Made by a program: the position numbers and the translations under genes. The notes beneath the pieces are model-generated. The model was not told the DNA's origin and made no database searches. It saw only the letters and a list, made by a program, of their open reading frames with translations. From Acidobacteriota bacterium (GTDB taxonomy: Bacteria; Acidobacteriota; Terriglobia; Acidiferrales; UBA7541), in contig QHZB01000232.1 of the NCBI GenBank assembly GCA_003224525.1, forward strand, positions 1 to 45,819: a DNA stretch of 45,819 bases, read 5' to 3'. Of this stretch, positions 12,612 to 45,326 are shown piece by piece. Position 1 is the stretch's first letter. Every line of letters starts with the position of its first letter.

Positions 12612-13868
12612 ATGGCAACTTCACAAGTCTCCGCAAAACCTGACCTCGGATCTCTCCGCATCCACGATGGCCAGCGGAGCAAGACTGGAACTGGCAAGCG
12701 GGTCATTTTCGCCGCCATACCGGTCCTCATTTTCGCGGGTATAGTCGTTGCCGCCTACGCTTTCCGCAGTCAGAAGCCGATGGTGGAGGTTGCCACAGCC
12801 ACGAAGCCCGAAGCAGGCGGCCGACAGACTGCCCTGAATGCCAGCGGCTACATCACGCCTCGACGTCGCGCCACCATCGCTGCCAAGATTACCGGCCGCG
12901 TCACCGGGGTATTCTTCGACGAAGGCACACGCGTTGCGGAGGGGCAGCTCCTTGCCACGCTCGATGATGCCGACGTCAAGCGCTCCCTCGATTCCGCCAA
13001 AGCCGACCGCGACGCCTCCCAAGCCGCCATCGCCGACTATGAGGTTCAGCTTAAGAACGCGCAGATTCTGCTTCATCGCGCGGAGCAGCTTCAGAAAGCT
13101 GGCGTGCAGACACAAGAGGCCCTGGACAACGCTGCGACGGCTGCGGACAGCCTGAAGGCCAAAATTGAGCTCGCCAAGCAGCAGGTGGCGGCCTCCGAAG
13201 CGCGCATCGGCGTTGCGCAACAGGCCGTGGACAATTGCACGATTCGCGCACCGTTTGCGGGCATTGTCGTGTCCAAGGACGCGCAGGTTGGCGAGATGGT
13301 CTCGCCGAATTCCGCCGGTGGCGGCTTTACACGCACCGGCATTGCGACGATTGTGGATATGAAATCTAACGAAATTGAAGTCGACGTCAACGAGTCGTAC
13401 ATTGCGCGCGTCGAAAACGGCCAGCAGGTTACAGCAACTCTGGATGCCTATCCGGACAAGCCGATTCCTTCTAAAGTGCGGACGGTCATCCCCACGGCCG
13501 ACCGGCAGAAGGCCACCGTCAAGGTGCGTATCACCATCCTGAATCTGGGAAAATACGATTTCATTTTGCCGGACATGGGCGTGAAGGTGGCTTTCCTGGA
13601 AAATGAGCGGCCCGCAGCAAAGGACAAGAGCAAAGACAAGGGGCCGCAGGCGGTGGCGTTCATCCCCAAGGGCGCGGTGCGCTCCGATGCGAATGCTTCT
13701 TTTGTCTTCCTGGTTCGCGATGGAAGAGTCGAGCGCCGCGCCGTAAGCCTCGGCATGGATCGCGGAACGGACGTCGCGATACTGGCGGGCGTCACCCCTG
13801 GTGACTCGCTGGTCGTCAAAGGGCCTGAAAGTTTGCATGATGGTGACAAAATTGAAATCCGTCAGTAG
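12612..13868 (+). CDS. periplasmic adaptor (HlyD/MacA-like) of an ABC exporter
   Basis: A 418-residue membrane-fusion protein with one N-terminal membrane anchor (about residues 34-53), a lipoyl half-motif (ITGRVTGVFFDEGTRV), a heptad-rich coiled-coil hairpin around residues 115-205, the second lipoyl half (CTIRAPFAGIVVSKDAQVGEMV), then beta-barrel and membrane-proximal domains. It forms the periplasmic part of a tripartite exporter. It is first in an operon with an ATPase (9 bp downstream) and two FtsX-type permeases, the arrangement of DevBCA and MacAB-like systems. No outer-membrane TolC-like gene is adjacent, so it may share one. AGGAG lies about 11 bp before the ATG. Confidence 0.9.
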   Translation: MATSQVSAKPDLGSLRIHDGQRSKTGTGKRVIFAAIPVLIFAGIVVAAYAFRSQKPMVEVATATKPEAGGRQTALNASGYITPRRRATIAAKITGRVTGVFFDEGTRVAEGQLLATLDDADVKRSLDSAKADRDASQAAIADYEVQLKNAQILLHRAEQLQKAGVQTQEALDNAATAADSLKAKIELAKQQVAASEARIGVAQQAVDNCTIRAPFAGIVVSKDAQVGEMVSPNSAGGGFTRTGIATIVDMKSNEIEVDVNESYIARVENGQQVTATLDAYPDKPIPSKVRTVIPTADRQKATVKVRITILNLGKYDFILPDMGVKVAFLENERPAAKDKSKDKGPQAVAFIPKGAVRSDANASFVFLVRDGRVERRAVSLGMDRGTDVAILAGVTPGDSLVVKGPESLHDGDKIEIRQ

Positions 13869-32468: not shown

Positions 32469-32776
32469 CAGAAAGAGGCCGCATTTGGGCACCGAATTTT
32501 TTTCGTAGTTGCACTTAGGGCTGCCTGAAAAGAAACCCTCCGATTTTCCCTGCACCGCCTGACAGTTCTCCGTCACTTTGAAGAACTTGTTCAGCAGACC
32601 CTACGAAACATTCTCCAGCAAGTCTGCATTCTTTCTTTATTTCATTTGAGGACTGACGGACCTCTGTTGCGTTATGATTTGCACCCAGGTGATTCCGCGC
32701 GGCGGTCAGCTGCGTTTCCGCAGTGCCTGGCACTGTGTTTGCTCACACCTGGAGCCCGGCAAGGAGTACAGGAACA

Positions 32777-34873
32777 ATGAGCAGCAAGCAAGGCTTTTCA
32801 CGCCGACAGTTCGTTTCTTCGGCCATCTCTACCGCCGCGGCTTCTTGCTTGCCGATCGGACGGGACCTCTTCACAGATCTTGCAACTCCCAACAGTGGAA
32901 CACGTGAAATCGCTCAAGACTCCCCAGTTGTTCTGACGACTACTCCTTCTTGGCGGGACCAGGGCATTCTCAACCTCACAAAGTCGCCGTACGCCAAACT
33001 GAGGAACGTACCGGCGCATGCCGTCATGATCGAAAATGGTTTTTGGGCGCAGCGCCGCGAAGTCAACGTCAACAAGAGCATTCCTTCCATGGGCAAGTTG
33101 CTAGAAGCCAACGGGCGGATGGACAATTTCCGCCGCCTCATCGGGAAGAGCCCTGCGGCGCAGCGCGGGCCGGTGTACTCCGATTCCGATGTTTACAAGT
33201 GGATGGAGGCCGCCGGCTTTGTTTTGCAATCCGGCGAGCGTCCCGAGCTCCGCACCGCGGTGGACAAAATCGCGAAGGACGTCGTGGGCGCGCAGCAGCC
33301 GAACGGATACTTGAACACCTATTTCGTCCGCGAACATGCAGCTGAACGAATGGAGCCGAAAACCCAGGAGTGGGGCCACGAGCTTTACAACATGGGCCAT
33401 TTCCTGCAGGGCGCCACGGCCTACTACCGGGCTACAGGCGACCGGACTTTACTCAACGCCGGAATCCGCTTCGTAAATGACTTCCTGCTATCCGATTTCG
33501 GTCCCGGCCCGGATAAGAAACCCCTGTACTCAGGCCATCCAGAAATGGAATTGGCTTTGGTCGAGCTATATCGAATGACCGGCGACAGACGACATCTCGA
33601 CCTTGCGGGCTACCTTCTCGCCGGCGACTCGCGGATTCACGTGAAGCGGCCTTGGGATGATGTCTATCATTTTTGCGGGACTCCCTTCACTTCGCGAACG
33701 CATCTCGAAGGTCACGCCGTGCGGGCCATGTACGCTTGCTGCGGCGCGGCCGACTATTACCTGGAAACCGGCGATCCCGCCTATTGGAAAACACTCGACG
33801 TTTTGTGGAAGGATCTCGTCACATCGCAAATGTACGTCACCGGTGGAGTCGGGGCGCGCAGCGACGGCGAAGCTTTCGGCGATCCTTTCGAATTGCCCAA
33901 CGCCCGGGCCTACGGGGAAAGTTGCGCGGCCATCGGAAACATGATGTGGAATTGGCGCATGCTCGCCGCCACGGGCGAAGCCAAATTCGCGGACGTGATC
34001 GAGCGCGCGCTCTATAACGGCATCAATTCCGGCATGTCCCTGGACGGCACACTCTACTGCTATCGCAATCCGCTGGCGTTTGATCCTTCCCATGGCGACA
34101 AAATTCGCAACGATTGGTACGACACGACCTGCTGTCCGCCGAATCTGGAACGCACCTTGGCCTCGCTGCCGGGATATTTTTACAGCACCAGTGGCGACGG
34201 CATTTATCTCCACCTCTTCGACAATTCTGAACTCGACTGGCATCTCGAGAGCGGTGGCGGCTTGAAAGTCCGCCAGAGAACAAATTATCCATGGGATGGC
34301 AGCGTGGAAATTGTCCTCACGCCCGCCGAACCCACCGAGTTCACGTTCTTCCTGCGCATCCCTGGATGGACTGACAGCGCGCAAGTCGGCGTCAATGGAA
34401 AGGCTGTCACAGGCGCCACTTCCGGCCAGTATCTTCCAATTCGCCGCCGCTGGTCCGCCGGCGACGTGATTCGCGTGCAATTTAATATGACACCCCAACT
34501 TCTCGAGGCCAACGCACAAATCGCCGAGAACAACGGCCGCGTGGCGGTTCAGCGCGGACCACTCGTGTACTGTTTGGAACAAATCGATCAGCCGGAAGGC
34601 GTGGCTTTGAAAGATGTGGCGTTGAGCCTGGGCCCGAAATCGGGGGCGCAATTCCAGGAAGAATTTCAGAAGGAGCTGCTTGGTGGAATCATCGTGCTGC
34701 GCCATGCAGGCGCGGATTACGGAGAGGCTGCGGAGCACGGCCTCCTCTACTTCCGCTATTCGAACGAGGCTCGAAAATCCAAGCCTCTCTCTCTAACTTT
34801 CATTCCGTATTACGCCTGGGCCAACCGCACCGCGACCCCTATGCAGGTTTGGACTCCCATATCGAAGACGTGA
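32777..34873 (+). CDS. GH127 beta-L-arabinofuranosidase-like glycoside hydrolase (DUF1680), exported
   Basis: The ATG at 32777 has AAGGAG about 10 bp upstream and opens a twin-arginine leader (FSRRQFVSSAISTAAASC); the longer frame from 32723 is rejected. The 698-residue protein has the GH127 (alpha/alpha)6 barrel (GYLNTYFV, HELYNMGHFLQGATAYYRAT, GHAVRAMYACCGAADYY). The zinc-thiolate catalytic set can be seen: Glu381-x-Cys383 in YGESCAAIGN and Cys452-Cys453 in DTTCCPPN, matching Glu338/Cys340/Cys417/Cys418 of HypBA1. A C-terminal beta-sandwich follows (FFLRIPGWTDSAQVGVNGKA). It probably removes terminal L-arabinofuranose from plant glycans in the periplasm. Confidence 0.93.
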   Translation: MSSKQGFSRRQFVSSAISTAAASCLPIGRDLFTDLATPNSGTREIAQDSPVVLTTTPSWRDQGILNLTKSPYAKLRNVPAHAVMIENGFWAQRREVNVNKSIPSMGKLLEANGRMDNFRRLIGKSPAAQRGPVYSDSDVYKWMEAAGFVLQSGERPELRTAVDKIAKDVVGAQQPNGYLNTYFVREHAAERMEPKTQEWGHELYNMGHFLQGATAYYRATGDRTLLNAGIRFVNDFLLSDFGPGPDKKPLYSGHPEMELALVELYRMTGDRRHLDLAGYLLAGDSRIHVKRPWDDVYHFCGTPFTSRTHLEGHAVRAMYACCGAADYYLETGDPAYWKTLDVLWKDLVTSQMYVTGGVGARSDGEAFGDPFELPNARAYGESCAAIGNMMWNWRMLAATGEAKFADVIERALYNGINSGMSLDGTLYCYRNPLAFDPSHGDKIRNDWYDTTCCPPNLERTLASLPGYFYSTSGDGIYLHLFDNSELDWHLESGGGLKVRQRTNYPWDGSVEIVLTPAEPTEFTFFLRIPGWTDSAQVGVNGKAVTGATSGQYLPIRRRWSAGDVIRVQFNMTPQLLEANAQIAENNGRVAVQRGPLVYCLEQIDQPEGVALKDVALSLGPKSGAQFQEEFQKELLGGIIVLRHAGADYGEAAEHGLLYFRYSNEARKSKPLSLTFIPYYAWANRTATPMQVWTPISKT

Positions 34874-35689: not shown

Positions 35690-36160
35690 GTGACCAGTCA
35701 ACGACGAATTCGATTGTTCTTGGACTCGAACGTCCTCACCGGAGGCATTGTTTCTCGGTGGGGCCTCGACAAGGCCGCCCTGTCGCTGTGTGCGGCGCGA
35801 CTTTGCAGACTGGCCCTGGCGGAGGTTGTTCGCGATGAGGTAGAAGAGAATCTGTTGATCCACGCGGAGCGTTTGCCCTCTTTGGAAGCCAACGAGCTAA
35901 TTGAACACTATCGTCGGCTCGTCAAACTGACCAATCCTGAGATGGCCCCCTACCCGGGCGAGGCGCTTGTAAGGTCAAGCCGTCACCCGATCCGGCACGC
36001 CGCGGACGTCCCCATACTTCTTTCTGCTATGGCCAGCAAGCCGGACTGGTTGTTAACGCACAACACCAAGCATTTCACCCAGGCGGTCGCAAAGCGTACT
36101 GGACTGCGGATCACGACCCCTGCGGAGTTCTTCCGAACTCTGTCCTCATTACTGCGCTAG
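35690..36160 (+). CDS. PIN-domain protein (putative ribonuclease toxin)
   Basis: A 156-residue protein with a PIN fold: RLFLDSNVLTGG supplies the first metal-binding Asp, EVVRDEVEENLL the conserved Glu region, HAADVPILLSAM the next Asp, and DWLLTHNTKHF the last strand before the C-terminal helix. It begins with GTG overlapping the stop of an upstream frame (GTGA); that frame (ending ...SRRHSRGQREK) is not recognisable as an antitoxin, so the partner is uncertain or absent. The Shine-Dalgarno is weak. PIN proteins of this kind cleave RNA. Its place beside an integrase remnant suits a mobile-island stability gene. Confidence 0.7.
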   Translation: MTSQRRIRLFLDSNVLTGGIVSRWGLDKAALSLCAARLCRLALAEVVRDEVEENLLIHAERLPSLEANELIEHYRRLVKLTNPEMAPYPGEALVRSSRHPIRHAADVPILLSAMASKPDWLLTHNTKHFTQAVAKRTGLRITTPAEFFRTLSSLLR

Positions 36161-36267: not shown

Positions 36268-36651
36268 TCAAAAGTTTCTTGAGGTGGCTCTGCCCTCGAA
36301 GGCACTTCGTGTCGATGCAATCTTGTCGTGCTGTTGCGCATCCGTAAGAGTGGACAGATGCGGATGTGTGCGAGTGTGAGCGGCAATTTCATGACCATTC
36401 GCCTGCATGGCAAACATTTGACCGCTCGATATGTAGGATTCCAGGCCCAGCTTTTGGGTGATTATGAACTGTGTTGTCTTGAGTCCCGCTGCGTCGATGA
36501 TGGGCATGCCATTGACGAAGGAAGATTCAAAGCCATCATCAAAATTGATCGACACCACTCCTTCCGCTGCGGGAGATACCGGGGTTTCCACGTTTCCCCC
36601 GGCGTACCCAATCAGGAACATGCACGACAACAAGATGCTAAAAGTTCGCAT
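36268..36651 (-). pseudogene. truncated NodB-type polysaccharide deacetylase, last gene of the polysaccharide operon
   Basis: The start overlaps the end of the TolC-like gene by 14 bp. A signal peptide (FSILLSCMFLIGYAGG) precedes a NodB domain N-terminus: the metal/catalytic motif INFDDGFESSF (Asp-Asp) at about residue 36 and the zinc-binding HTRTHPHLS (H-x3-H) at about residue 93. After DKIASTRSAFEG the frame loses family resemblance and stops at 127 residues, whereas NodB domains need about 200; the motifs for the remaining substrate groove are gone. The break sits about 110 bp from the PIN gene, probably an island rearrangement. It would have deacetylated the nascent polysaccharide in the periplasm. 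Confidence 0.75.
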
Positions 36652-37693
36652 CCAAAAACTCCTGGAGCTTACTCATGCGGAATTCAACGTCCCCGATTTC
36701 CACGCGGAGGACCATCTGATCAGCGATCAACTGATTCCGAAATGCGATGGCATTGCTCGTGTCCACACTCTCCAGTGAACGCAGATTAGCTTCAATCTCC
36801 TTATCGTGCTTATGCAAAATGACCAGTTCTGTCCTCTCAATCTCCAGGGTGTCGGTGATTTGGTGCTTCAGGATTGCGGCTTGATTAACAACATCATCAA
36901 ATTGTGTCTGTTTCCAATTGACGTAAGCAGTTTCGGACTGATCAATGTGCCTGGTGATGGCGCGGCGCCCCAAGTTGTAGCTTAGATTAAATTCTCCGTA
37001 GGCTCCAAAGGACGATACGCCGCGTGCCACGGAGGATATCTGACGGTGGGCCCCGCCGTTAAGCTTAATGTCCCAACCGCTCTGCTTTTCCAGCTTGTCA
37101 GTGGCTTGTAGATTCGCAGCCTCCGCGGCCAGCTTATCCGTAATCAAAACTTTGATGGATGTATCGCTCAGCGGAGGGACATAAGGCGAAGCTATCCCCG
37201 TCAGCGCAGCAGTGCGGCTGGTATCAAGGCGCACTTTTGCTCCTTCTAAGGCGTACAGCGCCGGACGCGTCAGATTTTGCGCCTCAACCAGCTTCATGTT
37301 GTCCGCGATGAGCGCATCCAGCTTATCCGAGGCGGCCTGGATGAGGTCCAATCGATTACGCAGGATGTCCTTCTCTATGCGCGGGAGCGCGTAGATAAGA
37401 TGTTGTTGTGCCTCCGTTGTGGCCTTGTACAGGTCACAATTAGTTTTCGCTGCCTTCATCACCAAACCAGATTTCATAACGTCTGACAGGCTGTCGGAGA
37501 CTCCGAAGACCAATTGCGGTGGCGTTCCGGTGCTGGGCTGTATCGGTCCCAGCAAAGCCGATGGCGTGCGGAGAAGATCCCGTCGCCCGGCTGCCTGTTC
37601 CGCGACGTATTTGCAGTAGGCAATTTCCGCTTCGCTTTGCGCAAAGGCGCTGACGGGGGCCAGAAGGATGGCCACTAGAAGGAAGGCTTTCAT
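36638..37693 (-). CDS. TolC-like outer-membrane export protein of the polysaccharide operon
   Basis: The start at 37693 gives a clean signal peptide (KAFLLVAILLAPVSAFAQ); a GTG at 37714 overlapping the previous stop is an alternative. The 351-residue product is dominated by long amphipathic helices (KLDALIADNMKLVEAQNL, LAAEAANLQATDKLEKQ, DDVVNQAAILKHQITDTLE) with a strand-rich centre (AYGEFNLSYNLGRRAI), the pattern of one TolC-family repeat unit. Full TolC proteins are usually 420-500 residues, so this is short. It sits between an HlyD-like adaptor and a deacetylase, overlapping the latter, so it is best read as the outer-membrane channel for the product of the synthase. Confidence 0.7.
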   Translation of the reverse strand: MKAFLLVAILLAPVSAFAQSEAEIAYCKYVAEQAAGRRDLLRTPSALLGPIQPSTGTPPQLVFGVSDSLSDVMKSGLVMKAAKTNCDLYKATTEAQQHLIYALPRIEKDILRNRLDLIQAASDKLDALIADNMKLVEAQNLTRPALYALEGAKVRLDTSRTAALTGIASPYVPPLSDTSIKVLITDKLAAEAANLQATDKLEKQSGWDIKLNGGAHRQISSVARGVSSFGAYGEFNLSYNLGRRAITRHIDQSETAYVNWKQTQFDDVVNQAAILKHQITDTLEIERTELVILHKHDKEIEANLRSLESVDTSNAIAFRNQLIADQMVLRVEIGDVEFRMSKLQEFLDANF

Positions 37694-37704
37694 GGTTTTC
37701 TCGG

Positions 37705-38757
37705 TCAGATCCACAACGGCTTGCGCCTTACAAACAGCACCTTGTCCTTGGCCGCTTCCTCTTCCGTCAAGCTGAGTTGGATGAGGGAGCCACGCAACTC
37801 GGACTTGAAGAATGGAAATGGATTGTTGGTCTTTTCCTCATCCGTAAAGATTTGCTGCACGGTTCCCACGTTGCGGCAGAGGATCATACTCAGGTAGCAG
37901 CTGTAGACTTCCGCTCCCTCGTGGACTTTGGCCTGATTCTCATAAGGGATGAATGCAAACCTCACGTCATGTTTGGTTGCCAGGAAATACGGGCTGTTCT
38001 GTGCTGTGGCAATAGCAGCTCGCAGTTGGGCGATTTGGACTTCATCCGAACGGAGTTGCTCCTCGCCGGAGGTAATCTGAATAGAGAGTTGCACAATATC
38101 GCTTTTCAGTTCTGCCTCTTTCGAGAGAGCGTCAACCGTTGACCCATAATCCGGCGTCTTCTGGCGCACGTTGTCGCGAAGTAAGACCTCCGCAATCCTC
38201 CCGTCCGTATAGGTGTTCCGGGTTTCCCGCAACTCCGTCTTGGCTATGGCCGCGTCCCCCTTGGTGATAAGGCCGGCCCCTAGGTCCTTGTCAATCTTGG
38301 CTTCAATTTCCTTAACTTCATCAAGAATGCGCAGGGTGGCGGCCATATCCTCGGTCTTCTGCATGTTCAAGTTCTTCAGCTCCGAGGCGTCCACGACGTT
38401 TGCCGAACTTTGCAGGTACAACGCCGTTTGAAATTTCTGGTCAAGCAGGTCCAAACTGGCTTTTGACTTCTTCAAATCACCCAGGCTGTCACGAAGGCGG
38501 TCCCGGTCCAGCACCAGCGCGGTCATGTTCTGTTGGCTGGTAACTAGCTTCGCCGTAAGGTCCAAAATCTTGTCATTGGTGGGAGCGACGATAAACGGAG
38601 CCACCCAAGAAGTGTTGAGAGCAAAGAAGATTTGAACAAAACCGTACGACGCGACGAACGCCAGGATAGCGTACAAGGTGACTACCGCGGCCGCGCGATA
38701 CATAGGAACGGCCAATTGATGGGCTCCCCGGAAGACTCTCGCGCTCAGGATTTTCAC
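37705..38757 (-). CDS. HlyD/Alg44-like membrane-fusion adaptor of the polysaccharide operon
   Basis: A 350-residue protein with one N-terminal membrane helix (AAAVVTLYAILAFVASYGFV), a lipoyl-like segment (WVAPFIVAPTNDKILDLTA), a long coiled-coil hairpin from about residue 70 to 225 with heptad leucines, then a second lipoyl/barrel part (NSPYFLATKHDVRFAFIPYE, KVHEGAEVYSC). It ends in a basic strand (LFVRRKPLWI). There is no PilZ domain, unlike Alg44. Its start overlaps the synthase stop as ATGA. Family knowledge suggests it bridges the inner-membrane synthase to the TolC-like channel; this coupling is inference from gene order. Confidence 0.75.
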   Translation of the reverse strand: MKILSARVFRGAHQLAVPMYRAAAVVTLYAILAFVASYGFVQIFFALNTSWVAPFIVAPTNDKILDLTAKLVTSQQNMTALVLDRDRLRDSLGDLKKSKASLDLLDQKFQTALYLQSSANVVDASELKNLNMQKTEDMAATLRILDEVKEIEAKIDKDLGAGLITKGDAAIAKTELRETRNTYTDGRIAEVLLRDNVRQKTPDYGSTVDALSKEAELKSDIVQLSIQITSGEEQLRSDEVQIAQLRAAIATAQNSPYFLATKHDVRFAFIPYENQAKVHEGAEVYSCYLSMILCRNVGTVQQIFTDEEKTNNPFPFFKSELRGSLIQLSLTEEEAAKDKVLFVRRKPLWI

Positions 38758-39968
38758 CTTTGTTCTCCTTGAATTAGCGTTGTGTCTCTAGCTCCGCCCC
38801 ACCCGTCCGAATCCAACGTAAGCAGGGCTGCCGGGACCATGAATAAAGTTCGTATAATCCCCCAAGTACCGTAAAGCGCCACGCGCATGGGATTTATCTT
38901 CACGGTTTGTTCCGGGTGAAAAAGGTTTACTGTCCAGATTGCCAACACTGCAATTGCGACTAGACTACTGGTCATTTTCACCAAGGCTAGGGCCGGGTTA
39001 TCCATAGAAAGTAGTACAGCGATTCCCATGAGAAGACTCAGTGGACTCAAAAAGTAAGTGTAGAGAGCCATTGGCTTGTTCATGCGCACATTGGCGCGCA
39101 GATTGAAAATCGTTTTGACGAAATCCGCGAAGCTGCTGCGCTTCCACCGAAGCTGCTGACCCCAATAGCCGTTGAAGGTGTTGGGCGCGGGGGTCCAGCA
39201 CTTCGCTTTTAGGTTGATGTACGTGTCATACCCGCGCAAAAGCGTCTGGTGGGTGATAAAGCGGTCTTCTCCGTAGCGTACAGGCACCCCCAGCCAATGC
39301 CGCGCTTCAATATCCGCAATGAGTTCCAGGAACAGGCTTCGGCGAATAGCGGACATACAACCGCTTACACAAGCCACGGACTTGAAGTAGGCTTCGGGAA
39401 TTTTCAACAGCCGGAAGAAAACATAATAGATATAGACCTGGAAGATGGTCAGGGCGTTGTCATCAGGATTAGAGATACCGACGGAGCCGCCAACCAAAGC
39501 CATTTTAGGGTTCGTGAAGCAGGCCATCAGTTCGCACATAGCATCCTTTGCCATGATTACGTCGGAATCGACTGTGACGATGATTTCCGACGTGGCTGTC
39601 TGTACTGCGGAGAGAATTGTCCTTCCCTTCCCTCGATTAACGTTGTTGGGCCGGGACTCGACATTCGGGAAATACGCCACCGCCTTAGCAATCCACCTCA
39701 GACTCTCTCCGACGTCCTTTGAGCAGTCATCCATTACGACGACGTGATATTTGTCAACGGGATAGTCGGTCTGGCAAATACTCTCAATGGTGTCGTAGAT
39801 GGCTTTCCCTTCGTTGTAACAAGAGATGAGCACCGTCACCGTTGGTTTGAGCGTGTAATCTTTCTTTAAACTTACGTCCTTGGACGATAGGTAGATGATC
39901 GCGGCCAAGGACAGCTGAACGATCCAGAGCAGGATAAATAGGTAGGGCAGCAGCGTCAGTAAATTCAT
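38754..39968 (-). CDS. processive GT2 polysaccharide synthase (hyaluronan/chitin/NodC-like)
   Basis: A 404-residue membrane glycosyltransferase with one N-terminal helix (residues 5-26), a cytosolic GT-A domain and about three C-terminal helices forming a channel. Processive-synthase motifs are complete: ISCYNEG near 48-54, DD at 80-81, the DSD at 134-136, GCMSAIRR at 203-210, GEDR at 233-236 and QQLRW at 271-275. This order matches hyaluronan, chitin and poly-beta-linked polysaccharide synthases; the sugar cannot be told from sequence. It overlaps its neighbours on both sides by ATGA, so it is made in step with the adaptor. No cyclic di-GMP-binding domain is present in the operon. Confidence 0.9.
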   Translation of the reverse strand: MNLLTLLPYLFILLWIVQLSLAAIIYLSSKDVSLKKDYTLKPTVTVLISCYNEGKAIYDTIESICQTDYPVDKYHVVVMDDCSKDVGESLRWIAKAVAYFPNVESRPNNVNRGKGRTILSAVQTATSEIIVTVDSDVIMAKDAMCELMACFTNPKMALVGGSVGISNPDDNALTIFQVYIYYVFFRLLKIPEAYFKSVACVSGCMSAIRRSLFLELIADIEARHWLGVPVRYGEDRFITHQTLLRGYDTYINLKAKCWTPAPNTFNGYWGQQLRWKRSSFADFVKTIFNLRANVRMNKPMALYTYFLSPLSLLMGIAVLLSMDNPALALVKMTSSLVAIAVLAIWTVNLFHPEQTVKINPMRVALYGTWGIIRTLFMVPAALLTLDSDGWGGARDTTLIQGEQR

Positions 39969-40783
39969 GATGGATCCACAGAGTAATCAAATACAACCTG
40001 AACATTGTCACTACGCAACCCGACAGGGCCGTGAAGCTGTAAGACCATAGCCGGCAGCGTTCCCCGCCAAACCTCTCTTCCGTCAACGGTGACCTTCAGT
40101 TCCTGGCCGTCAAGATCGGCTGCCAGTATGTGCGGCTCGTCAACGCGCAGGGCTGGGGGATCGGTCTTGAGTTCCGCCCTGATGTTATTGATATAGCCGC
40201 GGTCCAGACACTCCTCGTGAGTGCGTTGGCCGGGATTGGTTTTCACGGATACGGCAATCCTTTGTGTGTCGAAGTTCCACATCACGTAGACTAAGTTGCA
40301 GATGTCCTGGGCTTTCAGCTTGATACCAAACTGGTGACGGATTTCGCCACTTCCCAAACGGGAAACTTCCCGGGAAGGGCCAAGGTAAGCAAAATTTACA
40401 ATCACCTGCTGTGGAGTGTTCCGCTTAAGAGTTGCGCGCATTTCCTTCGACTGCGTCATCAAGCGATTGCCCGCAGCCTTCTCAATGCGGCCGTCCGAAA
40501 CGTTCCAGTCTCTTTGTTCGGTCTTTAGCCCTTCCCCTCGCAGAAAGATATCCCCGGTGACTCCGGAGGTTAGGAGTACAAGAATCTTGGGGGATTCGGC
40601 TGAAAGAGAATCGTCGGCGCCTTCAAGCGCGCCGTCGGTGACTTCAAAATTGGAAAGCTTAGTTTTCTCCTGGGTTTGTTGGGCCCATGGAGAGTGGCTA
40701 AGAGTTGCGGCGACCGCTGCAACCGCCAAAGTTGCGAAGATACGCGTCTGCATCATCCTCAAATCCCCCCGGATCAGAACCAT
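39965..40783 (-). CDS. secreted beta-sandwich protein, first gene of the polysaccharide operon
   Basis: A signal peptide is visible (IFATLAVAAVAATLSHSPWA, cleavage near WAQQ). ATGs at 40783 (AGGAG just upstream) and 40756 are both possible starts. The 230-residue mature part is strand-rich (GDIFLRGEGL, HQFGIKLKAQDICNLVYVMW, LKVTVDGREVWRGTLPAM, VGLRSDNVQVVFDYSV), resembling concanavalin A-like jelly-roll domains that bind or cleave glycans. I cannot name the family. It overlaps the synthase start by ATGA and has a broken partial copy just upstream at 40865-41070, so its lineage duplicated locally. A periplasmic polysaccharide-binding or trimming role is inferred. Confidence 0.65.
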   Translation of the reverse strand: MVLIRGDLRMMQTRIFATLAVAAVAATLSHSPWAQQTQEKTKLSNFEVTDGALEGADDSLSAESPKILVLLTSGVTGDIFLRGEGLKTEQRDWNVSDGRIEKAAGNRLMTQSKEMRATLKRNTPQQVIVNFAYLGPSREVSRLGSGEIRHQFGIKLKAQDICNLVYVMWNFDTQRIAVSVKTNPGQRTHEECLDRGYINNIRAELKTDPPALRVDEPHILAADLDGQELKVTVDGREVWRGTLPAMVLQLHGPVGLRSDNVQVVFDYSVDPS

Positions 40784-43197: not shown

Positions 43198-43314
43198 TAA
43201 AGCCTGTTGATGCAGTTGGCTTTGAGCGGTGAAAGCTACGAACCGGAAGAAGGAGTGAATCGCGGCCAACCGAACGTTCCGGCGGCCACCATTTACGATA
43301 CAAGTAGGCAGGCT

Positions 43315-43806
43315 CTACCGCCGGCGATGTTCATGTTCGTTGATGAAATCGCTCAGCTTCTCCGGATCGATTTTCACCTGCATCACCACCGCTTCATCAG
43401 GTTCCACGCTCACCAGCAGCAGCTTCATGTCATTGCCGTCGGCTTTGGCGTAAATGTAGGTATGCTCGCCGCTGCGGCGCGAGAAGCTTCTCACCAGCGG
43501 CTGCCAGCCGGACGAGCCCGCTTGCTGCACCAGCTCGTCCAGCCGGTTATCCAGTTCCGGCCCGGACAAATGCTGGTCCTCAAAAATGGCTATTTTGAAG
43601 AGTTTCACCCCGCCTACGTGCGTGCACTTCACCACCACTCCCGCAAACGACATCAAAAACCGGTAATTCCGATGCACGTGATACTCCGCTTCGATGTGCC
43701 GCACGATTCTCCCGAAGTCGTCCGCACTCAGGTCTTCCGCAAGCGCGAAAAAGCCGAAGATGATAAGCAACAGGCTGGCCGCCCGGTTTACGCTAGCTGT
43801 TGTCAT
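43315..43806 (-). CDS. DUF4252 protein (copy A)
   Basis: A 163-residue exported protein with a signal peptide (ASLLLIIFGFFALAEDLSA) and a DUF4252 domain (FKIAIFEDQHLSGPELDNRL, then SGEHTYIYAKADGNDMKLLL). It ends VKIDPEKLSDFINEHEHRRR, the native C-terminus of this gene. It starts with an ATG overlapping the stop of the upstream chimeric gene. All but the last 17 codons are contained in a 925-bp segment repeated exactly upstream. DUF4252 genes often follow an ECF sigma factor and anti-sigma in this phylum; the molecular role is not known. Confidence 0.82.
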   Translation of the reverse strand: MTTASVNRAASLLLIIFGFFALAEDLSADDFGRIVRHIEAEYHVHRNYRFLMSFAGVVVKCTHVGGVKLFKIAIFEDQHLSGPELDNRLDELVQQAGSSGWQPLVRSFSRRSGEHTYIYAKADGNDMKLLLVSVEPDEAVVMQVKIDPEKLSDFINEHEHRRR

Positions 43807-45215
43807 GGGACGCCTCCGGTGATGTCCTTTTCTTGGGATGTTCTTTCTCTTTGTTCTCGGGAATCCCGAATTTTCCGCCCAGAGCGCTCAGCTTATCCAG
43901 GTCCACCGGGCCGACAATATTCACCACCGTCAGCTCCTTCGGTTCGGCCACCAAGATCGCGATGCCCGCAATGTTATTGTGGGCGTCTTTCATTACGTAA
44001 ATCTCGTTGTTCTCATTGGCGCGCTTGTCCCGGTTTTCCACGATTTTGCTCCAGCCCGGTGCGGCAAGCTGCGTGCGGATTTCCTCCACATCGGCGGCGC
44101 TGTACTGATTCGGCTGCTCGAATTCGAAGTTCTTAACGTAAATTCCCTTCAGATTCTTGATGAGGTCTTTTGCCTGGCCGCTTTCCGGATCGTCCTTATC
44201 CATATCCAGAAACTTTGCCGCCAGTTGCAGCATGTCGCCATCGAGCGTCACGTTGTTGACCTCCACCGCCTTGGCGCTCAGCTTTTCCAGATCGATTTTC
44301 ACCTGCATCACCACCGCTTCATCAGGTTCCACGCTCACCAGCAGCAGCTTCATGTCATTGCCGTCGGCTTTGGCGTAAATGTAGGTATGCTCGCCGCTGC
44401 GGCGCGAGAAGCTTCTCACCAGCGGCTGCCAGCCGGACGAGCCCGCTTGCTGCACCAGCTCGTCCAGCCGGTTATCCAGTTCCGGCCCGGACAAATGCTG
44501 GTCCTCAAAAATGGCTATTTTGAAGAGTTTCACCCCGCCTACGTGCGTGCACTTCACCACCACTCCCGCAAACGACATCAAAAACCGGTAATTCCGATGC
44601 ACGTGATACTCCGCTTCGATGTGCCGCACGATTCTCCCGAAGTCGTCCGCACTCAGGTCTTCCGCAAGCGCGAAAAAGCCGAAGATGATAAGCAACAGGC
44701 TGGCCGCCCGGTTTACGCTAGCTGTTGTCATGGGACGCCTCCGGTGATGTCCTTTTCTTGGGATGTTCTTTCTCTTTGTTCTCGGGAATCCCGAATTTTC
44801 CGCCCAGAGCGCTCAGCTTATCCAGGTCCACCGGGCCGACAATATTCACCACCGTCAGCTCCTTCGGTTCGGCCACCAAGATCGCGATGCCCGCAATGTT
44901 ATTGTGGGCGTCTTTCATTACGTAAATCTCGTTGTTCTCATTGGCGCGCTTGTCCCGGTTTTCCACGATTTTGCTCCAGCCCGGTGCGGCAAGCTGCGTG
45001 CGGATTTCCTCCACATCGGCGGCGCTGTACTGATTCGGCTGCTCGAATTCGAAGTTCTTAACGTAAATTCCCTTCAGATTCTTGATGAGGTCTTTTGCCT
45101 GGCCGCTTTCCGGATCGTCCTTATCCATATCCAGAAACTTTGCCGCCAGTTGCAGCATGTCGCCATCGAGCGTCACGTTGTTGACCTCCACCGCCTTGGC
45201 GCTCAGCTTTTCCAG
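43366..45215. repeat. perfect 925-bp tandem duplication
   Basis: 43366-44290 and 44291-45215 are abutting direct repeats, identical everywhere I compared them. The unit runs from within the last codons of DUF4252 gene A to within the first codons after the signal of gene B. The join (ATCGATC|TGGAAAAG on the minus strand) shows almost no overlap, while both parents share AAGCTGAGCG just beside it. Confidence 0.9.
43793..44731 (-). CDS. chimeric two-domain DUF4252 protein created by tandem duplication
   Basis: A 312-residue fusion. Residues 1-149 are identical to DUF4252 copy A including its signal peptide, up to VVMQVKID; from LEKLSAKAVEVNNVTLDGD on, it is identical to copy B without its signal. 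The joint falls in KID-LEKLS, keeping the frame, so a double-DUF4252 secreted protein is predicted. Start and stop overlap the flanking genes by 14 bp, as in the parent arrangement. Nothing is lost: intact B lies upstream and intact A downstream. The exact identity means the event is very recent or an assembly error. Confidence 0.75.
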   Translation of the reverse strand: MTTASVNRAASLLLIIFGFFALAEDLSADDFGRIVRHIEAEYHVHRNYRFLMSFAGVVVKCTHVGGVKLFKIAIFEDQHLSGPELDNRLDELVQQAGSSGWQPLVRSFSRRSGEHTYIYAKADGNDMKLLLVSVEPDEAVVMQVKIDLEKLSAKAVEVNNVTLDGDMLQLAAKFLDMDKDDPESGQAKDLIKNLKGIYVKNFEFEQPNQYSAADVEEIRTQLAAPGWSKIVENRDKRANENNEIYVMKDAHNNIAGIAILVAEPKELTVVNIVGPVDLDKLSALGGKFGIPENKEKEHPKKRTSPEASHDNS

Positions 45216-45326
45216 GTGATCCAGCTTCAACCGCGCATCCTGCGCGCTTGCGGGAAGCGCCACGCAGAACAACGCCAGTCCCACAAGAAGCCCGACCAAT
45301 CCATTCCTTCTCTCAACGATTCTCAT
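44718..45326 (-). CDS. DUF4252 protein (copy B)
   Basis: A 202-residue exported protein: signal peptide (GLVGLLVGLALFCVALPASA, cleaved near ASAQD), then LDHLEKLSAKAVEVNNVTLD and the DUF4252 core (LIKNLKGIYVKNFEFEQPNQ, AADVEEIRTQLAAPGWSKIV, EIYVMKDAHNNIAGIAILVA). It ends in a Lys/Glu-rich tail (NKEKEHPKKRTSPEASHDNS). It starts 21 bp after the anti-sigma-like gene and overlaps the next gene by 14 bp. A role in an ECF-controlled envelope response is inferred from position only. Confidence 0.85.
   Translation of the reverse strand: MRIVERRNGLVGLLVGLALFCVALPASAQDARLKLDHLEKLSAKAVEVNNVTLDGDMLQLAAKFLDMDKDDPESGQAKDLIKNLKGIYVKNFEFEQPNQYSAADVEEIRTQLAAPGWSKIVENRDKRANENNEIYVMKDAHNNIAGIAILVAEPKELTVVNIVGPVDLDKLSALGGKFGIPENKEKEHPKKRTSPEASHDNS

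Follow-up and report, generated by a model that had tools for sequence, protein, structure and literature searches.

We describe a compact gene cluster in the genome of an Acidobacteriota bacterium (assembly GCA_003224525.1; 6.5 Mb in 516 contigs), located on contig QHZB01000232.1, which was analysed over its full length of 45,819 nucleotides (positions 1-45819, hereafter the window). At the core of the cluster lie genes for a predicted glycosyltransferase family 2 (GT2) synthase, a likely membrane-fusion-type adaptor and a predicted TolC-fold channel, which recur together in two phyla and probably form an exporter that carries a polysaccharide across the cell envelope. The stretch from 36268 to 40783 is filled by five open reading frames (ORFs) on the minus strand, here called A to E, which overlap or nearly touch; a preliminary description made from the sequence alone had reported five tightly packed leftward genes, and the ORF list gives exactly these positions. 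A (39965-40783) encodes a secreted protein of 272 amino acids that we regard as accessory, B (38754-39968) the synthase of 404 amino acids, C (37705-38757) the adaptor of 350 amino acids, D (36638-37693) the channel, with 351 amino acids when read from its ATG, and E (36268-36651) a remnant of 127 amino acids of a NodB-type polysaccharide deacetylase that has lost its 3' half. Overlaps of 4 bp join A to B and B to C, and D and E share 14 bp; the end of C and the ATG of D (37693) are separated by a gap of 11 bp, and an alternative GTG start (37714, 358 amino acids) overlaps C by 10 bp. Pfam and NCBIfam scans gave no match to any curated family for A, C or D of the window, and sequence searches with these three proteins against solved structures found no relative. 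A Pfam scan likewise detected no PilZ domain in any of the five proteins, as had been noted in the preliminary description.

Results

B is predicted to be a GT2 synthase with processive-type motifs that belongs on the side of NodC and hyaluronan synthase (HAS). It matches the Pfam GT2 family at E 1e-21, has four hydrophobic segments, one N-terminal and about three C-terminal, and carries the motifs DDCS (residue 80), DSD (134), GEDR (233) and QQLRW (271), of which the last three had already been recognised and all four are invariant among 20 members. Each of the 20 aligned B proteins matches both the NodC and the PgaC model; for window B the best curated model is NodC, with a score of 130 bits that is far under the 550-bit cut-off of this model (TIGR04242). 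In a maximum-likelihood tree with few references (NodC, PgaC, BcsA, BgsA, a HAS-like GT2 from Enterococcus faecium and own-genome GT2s, a set that holds no curated HAS, Alg8 or XcsA), the 20 cassette synthases form one clade (97/98), which is sister (96/98) to NodC plus the E. faecium protein, and PgaC, BcsA and BgsA lie apart. The E. faecium reference is encoded on a conjugative plasmid (NZ_CP034948.1; locus L111, 1-2256), where it stands beside a nucleotide-sugar dehydrogenase gene, and GT2s similar to it occur on Lactococcus plasmids.

For D, structure prediction points to a TolC fold. An AlphaFold2 model based on an alignment of 25 relatives (pLDDT 83) displays two helix-beta hairpin-helix repeats, as in TolC, with the element order helix, beta hairpin (52-75), long helix (76-144), helices, beta hairpin (214-246) and helices. 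All Foldseek matches below E 0.001 are TolC-family channels, with TolC, OprM and CusC among the leaders (OprN, E 1e-9; TolC, E 2e-8), and VIA-align returned Z values of 13-14 across residues 22-358, well above unrelated rows. The N-terminus is hydrophobic and signal-peptide-like. The Pfam family OEP (PF02321) does not match window D and is matched by one of 19 family members (7e-4). According to the model, D is a TolC-fold protein, and the full-length structural match to TolC-family channels bears out the initial reading of the 351-residue protein as TolC-like.

Hydropathy analysis of C reveals a single N-terminal hydrophobic region (approximately residues 17-47) and no second, C-terminal transmembrane segment. 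Its low-confidence model consists of a long alpha-hairpin (61-160 and 166-253) followed by a C-terminal beta domain in which FVPYxN, a Gly and two Cys are conserved; the stretches that flank the hairpin, WxAPxILSP before it and SPYYLA after it, form no lipoyl domain in this model. EmrA is the best Foldseek match (9.7e-6) and the sole one below E 0.001, and MacA comes next, while VIA-align is uninformative for C, with coiled coils of every kind scoring alike. The motif at the hairpin turn, DLxAGLITK (DLxAGLITKxDA), is kept in 32 of 33 C members and resembles EmrA NANLIGREELQHA, and in a comparison of the C profile with membrane fusion proteins of the window genome the only notable alignment, a weak one, fell on this same tip motif (P 3.8e-4). 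Because EmrA and MacA lead the structural matches and the hairpin tip is conserved, we read C as a likely divergent membrane-fusion-type adaptor. The adaptor role proposed in the preliminary description can therefore be kept, but its label HlyD-like finds no support in sequence, and we rejected an assignment to HlyD by sequence after Pfam scans (window C and 19 members) and hhalign comparisons with BgsB, EmrA and own-genome membrane fusion proteins yielded no family-level match.

E matches Polysacc_deac_1 (Pfam, 1.7e-16). Its homology to the intact copies of 248 amino acids in two close relatives stops abruptly near 36318, the sequence beyond this point is unrelated, and a PIN_3-like gene lies there on the other strand (35690-36160). 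The truncation suspected at first sight is thereby confirmed. Either a real rearrangement or an assembly join may have caused the break, and a search of the window genome did not turn up the lost half.

An adaptor alignment was scanned over 84,980 species genomes and gave 26 loci, the ORFs of which were then profile-searched. In each of the 23 Acidobacteriota loci C is accompanied by D, and B lies directly upstream, in the order B-C-D, in all 21 in which the contig reaches B. One record titled Betaproteobacteria (L033) is the same contig as one from the window's own genus (G038), and its title seems wrong. No recurrent fourth gene was found beside B-C-D in the Acidobacteriota loci, where the neighbours vary. 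A was seen with the trio in a single close relative (L023; the contig of another, L024, begins inside B), and an intact E in these two relatives only. As A and E are confined to the closest relatives, the core is a module of three genes, not the five-gene unit that had originally been proposed.

The B, C and D families also occur together in 13 Burkholderiales clusters (Paraburkholderia, Caballeronia and others), all 13 of which encode in addition a nucleotide-sugar dehydrogenase (UGD). Gene order differs among these clusters, being C-D-UGD-GH16-B in four (L016, L045, L046, L069), UGD-C-D-B in one (L068), UGD-B-D-C-GH16 in three (L070-L072), UGD-B-C-D in three (L073, L074, L076) and B-C-D-UGD in two (L075, L080). 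Since the set recurs in two phyla, B-C-D is more than a chance association, and its retention while the order changes is strong evidence for functional linkage over inherited order. The preliminary description had looked to unrelated genomes for support, and this came from the Acidobacteriota with a constant order and from the Burkholderiales with reshuffled ones. Moreover, with the cassette synthases in a single clade, the module seems to be an old system with a dedicated role rather than the result of repeated recruitment.

The dehydrogenases that we tested score best against TviB, at 392-469 bits and thus under its cut-off of 592, and exceed the cut-off for general NDP-sugar dehydrogenases. 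The label GH16 stands for a secreted GH16-like protein without a Pfam family match, and was given because the aligned proteins share an invariant ExDxE and there are weak NCBIfam beta-glucanase matches; A was considered as a homologue of this protein and rejected, as the two showed no profile match. An EAL-domain gene lies directly upstream of the cassette at four Burkholderiales loci (L045, 6450-7736; L046, 6164-7489; L048, 6454-7743; L069, 7463-8695), which suggests control by cyclic di-GMP although the cassette is without PilZ. Upstream in the close relative L023 (2055-2756) we suspected a PilZ protein by eye, for which there is no Pfam match.

The cassette is patchily distributed, with 7 of 95 genomes of the window's order and 2 of 396 in a sample of its phylum, and with 10 of 299 genomes of the Paraburkholderia family, 2 of 399 in a sample of that order and 2 of 398 in a sample of that phylum; each count includes the centre genome. 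It is present in the named isolates Granulicella sp. S156, Paraburkholderia diazotrophica and Caballeronia sordidicola. One genome of the Paraburkholderia family (G569) has two different copies (L075 and L076), each with its own dehydrogenase. In one Acidobacteriota genome (L050/L051, G178:C12) the adaptor gene is broken by an in-frame TGA, and a split adaptor ORF is also found in L044.

Discussion

We consider it probable that B, C and D act as one coupled machine, a synthase-driven polysaccharide exporter that reaches across the envelope. In this machine B would polymerise a nucleotide sugar and use its own membrane helices as the passage through which it pushes the chain, a mode of translocation that is established for HAS and BcsA. 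C, held in the inner membrane by one segment, would surround or receive the chain and span the periplasm by means of its long alpha-hairpin, the tip of which would dock onto the periplasmic mouth of D, and the TolC-fold tunnel formed by D would then carry the chain across the outer membrane. The force would come from chain elongation, so that no ABC, RND or MFS pump would be needed. The sugar would vary by lineage. Since a gene for a TviB-like UDP-sugar dehydrogenase is present in every Burkholderiales cluster, we infer a uronic-acid-containing polymer for these bacteria. In the closest relatives of the window the trio is joined by a NodB deacetylase gene, of which the window itself has a broken copy, and this suggests a product with N-acetylhexosamine for them.

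Several observations weigh against this interpretation. The model of C is weak (pLDDT 70, pTM 0.43), its structural match to EmrA is mostly coiled coil, and its lipoyl domain appears to be degenerate or missing, which is unusual for a membrane fusion protein; HlyD is not among the 25 Pfam families listed for 19 C members, and hhalign gave no match of the C profile to BgsB or EmrA. The whole-chain TM-scores of D in Foldseek are modest (0.36-0.50), and D is shorter than TolC (358 versus 428 amino acids). The cassette is rare, and its conservation rests on about 36 loci, some of them closely related. The preliminary description had also pointed to a BcsC-type porin encoded elsewhere as a competing outlet; in favour of the exporter, a search for the BCSC_C domain (PF05420) found none in the window genome, with a positive control in E. 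coli, but the other outlets PgaA, AlgE and Wza lay outside this search.

One alternative is that B makes a short, NodC-like or modified oligomer in the cytoplasm and that C and D belong to a type-I-like exporter whose pump is encoded elsewhere. The NodC model is matched by every aligned member, the close subgroup has a NodB homologue, and NodC products are oligomers exported by NodIJ; at locus L110 nodI adjoins nodC. Yet the trio has no recurrent ABC, RND or MFS gene next to it, B falls far short of the NodC cut-off and its clade is separate from NodC, and the dehydrogenase present in all Burkholderiales clusters speaks for a hetero- or uronic polymer and against a chitin oligomer. We therefore hold this alternative to be unlikely.

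A role of C as a chain-length or co-polymerase factor, similar to polysaccharide co-polymerase (PCP)/Wzz proteins or to BcsB, would leave C without a bridge to D, which would then function alone or with another adaptor. C has no detectable HlyD sequence signature, and long coiled coils combined with a beta domain are known in other envelope proteins, both of which would fit such a role. On the other hand, C lacks the second, C-terminal transmembrane segment of PCP proteins, the heads of its structural matches are EmrA and MacA, its hairpin-tip motif resembles membrane fusion proteins, and C and D are always neighbours, which makes this a quite improbable explanation. Least credible, and in our view very unlikely, is that the cassette is a plain member of the XcsA-XcsB-TolC or BgsA-BgsB systems that moved to the Acidobacteriota: the three roles of GT2, adaptor and TolC-type channel are the same, but B groups with NodC and HAS in the tree and not with BcsA and BgsA, the window proteins have no PilZ, and C does not match BgsB even in profile-to-sequence comparison (XcsA and XcsB were compared by description only).

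A synthase-driven exporter of this kind would be a variant of a known arrangement. A GT2 synthase, an HlyD-like adaptor and a TolC-type channel have been proposed to form a tripartite exporter, XcsA-XcsB-TolC, for cellulose in the cyanobacterium Thermosynechococcus vulcanus (Maeda et al., 2018, as summarised in the review PMC12430437), and the assumption that the combination was undescribed was thus too strong, the more so as a GT2 is likewise combined with an adaptor in Alg8-Alg44 and in BgsA-BgsB. According to the 2025 review (PMC12430437), the Xcs model lacks experimental validation and no single operon holds its genes. XcsA, which is absent from our tree, belongs to the BcsA-type cellulose synthases and has a PilZ or PCR domain, unlike the NodC/HAS-side B without PilZ, and TolC is not co-encoded with it, whereas the cassette has its own divergent TolC-fold channel.

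The two-gene bgsA-bgsB operon for mixed-linkage beta-glucan in Sinorhizobium and Rhizobium likewise encodes a GT2 together with an adaptor that is assumed to push the polymer out, the HlyD-like domain of BgsB being considered to form the glucan channel, and the available portions of both sources name no outer-membrane partner (PMC9495663, PMC7902896). BgsA has a C-terminal domain that binds cyclic di-GMP, and it groups with BcsA in our tree, unlike B; C shares no detectable similarity with BgsB. In the alginate system Alg8-Alg44-AlgK-AlgE, a GT2 polymerase is combined with an inner-membrane protein that has a membrane-fusion-like periplasmic domain, which in Alg44 is MexA-like (PMC3815931). 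Alg44, however, carries PilZ, and in the outer membrane the system uses the beta-barrel AlgE with the tetratricopeptide repeat lipoprotein AlgK, not a TolC-fold tunnel.

With EmrAB-TolC and MacAB-TolC the cassette shares an adaptor with a long alpha-hairpin and a TolC-fold channel, but their inner-membrane partner is a transporter, whereas that of the cassette would be a polymerising synthase. The synthases of NodC/HasA type are the sister group of the cassette clade (as NodC and the E. faecium protein), and the pairing of a GT2 with a nucleotide-sugar dehydrogenase, of HasA/HasB type, is also seen on the E. faecium plasmid. We know of no dedicated outer-membrane parts in these systems, and Gram-positive HAS needs none, whereas the cassette co-encodes both an adaptor and a channel. 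A limited literature search found no paper on this gene set in Acidobacteriota or Burkholderia. New here is the combination, in one cassette, of a NodC/HAS-side synthase with a dedicated TolC-fold channel and a divergent adaptor, and without PilZ.

We lean towards regarding this compact and patchy cassette of Acidobacteriota and Burkholderiales, with a NodC/HAS-side synthase and with a divergent adaptor and a TolC-fold tunnel of its own, as a separate dedicated secretion class. If this is true, synthases of the NodC/HAS branch would have a route across the outer membrane, and none is known to us at present. The field has yet to establish whether a synthase can drive its chain along a TolC-type tunnel with the help of a pump-type adaptor; as all three parts, the dedicated channel among them, are adjacent in this small cassette, also in named isolates, the question is amenable to three gene deletions.

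Other features of the window

A GH127 beta-L-arabinofuranosidase-like gene lies near the operon on the opposite strand (32723-34873), and a second, canonical membrane fusion protein of the HlyD_D23 family is encoded outside the cassette at 12834-13550. At 43207-45326 the window contains a tandem duplication of about 925 bp, in which long stretches are identical between the ORFs at 43838 and 44763 and between those at 43315 and 43793; it yields chimeric DUF4252 ORFs and may be real or an assembly artefact.

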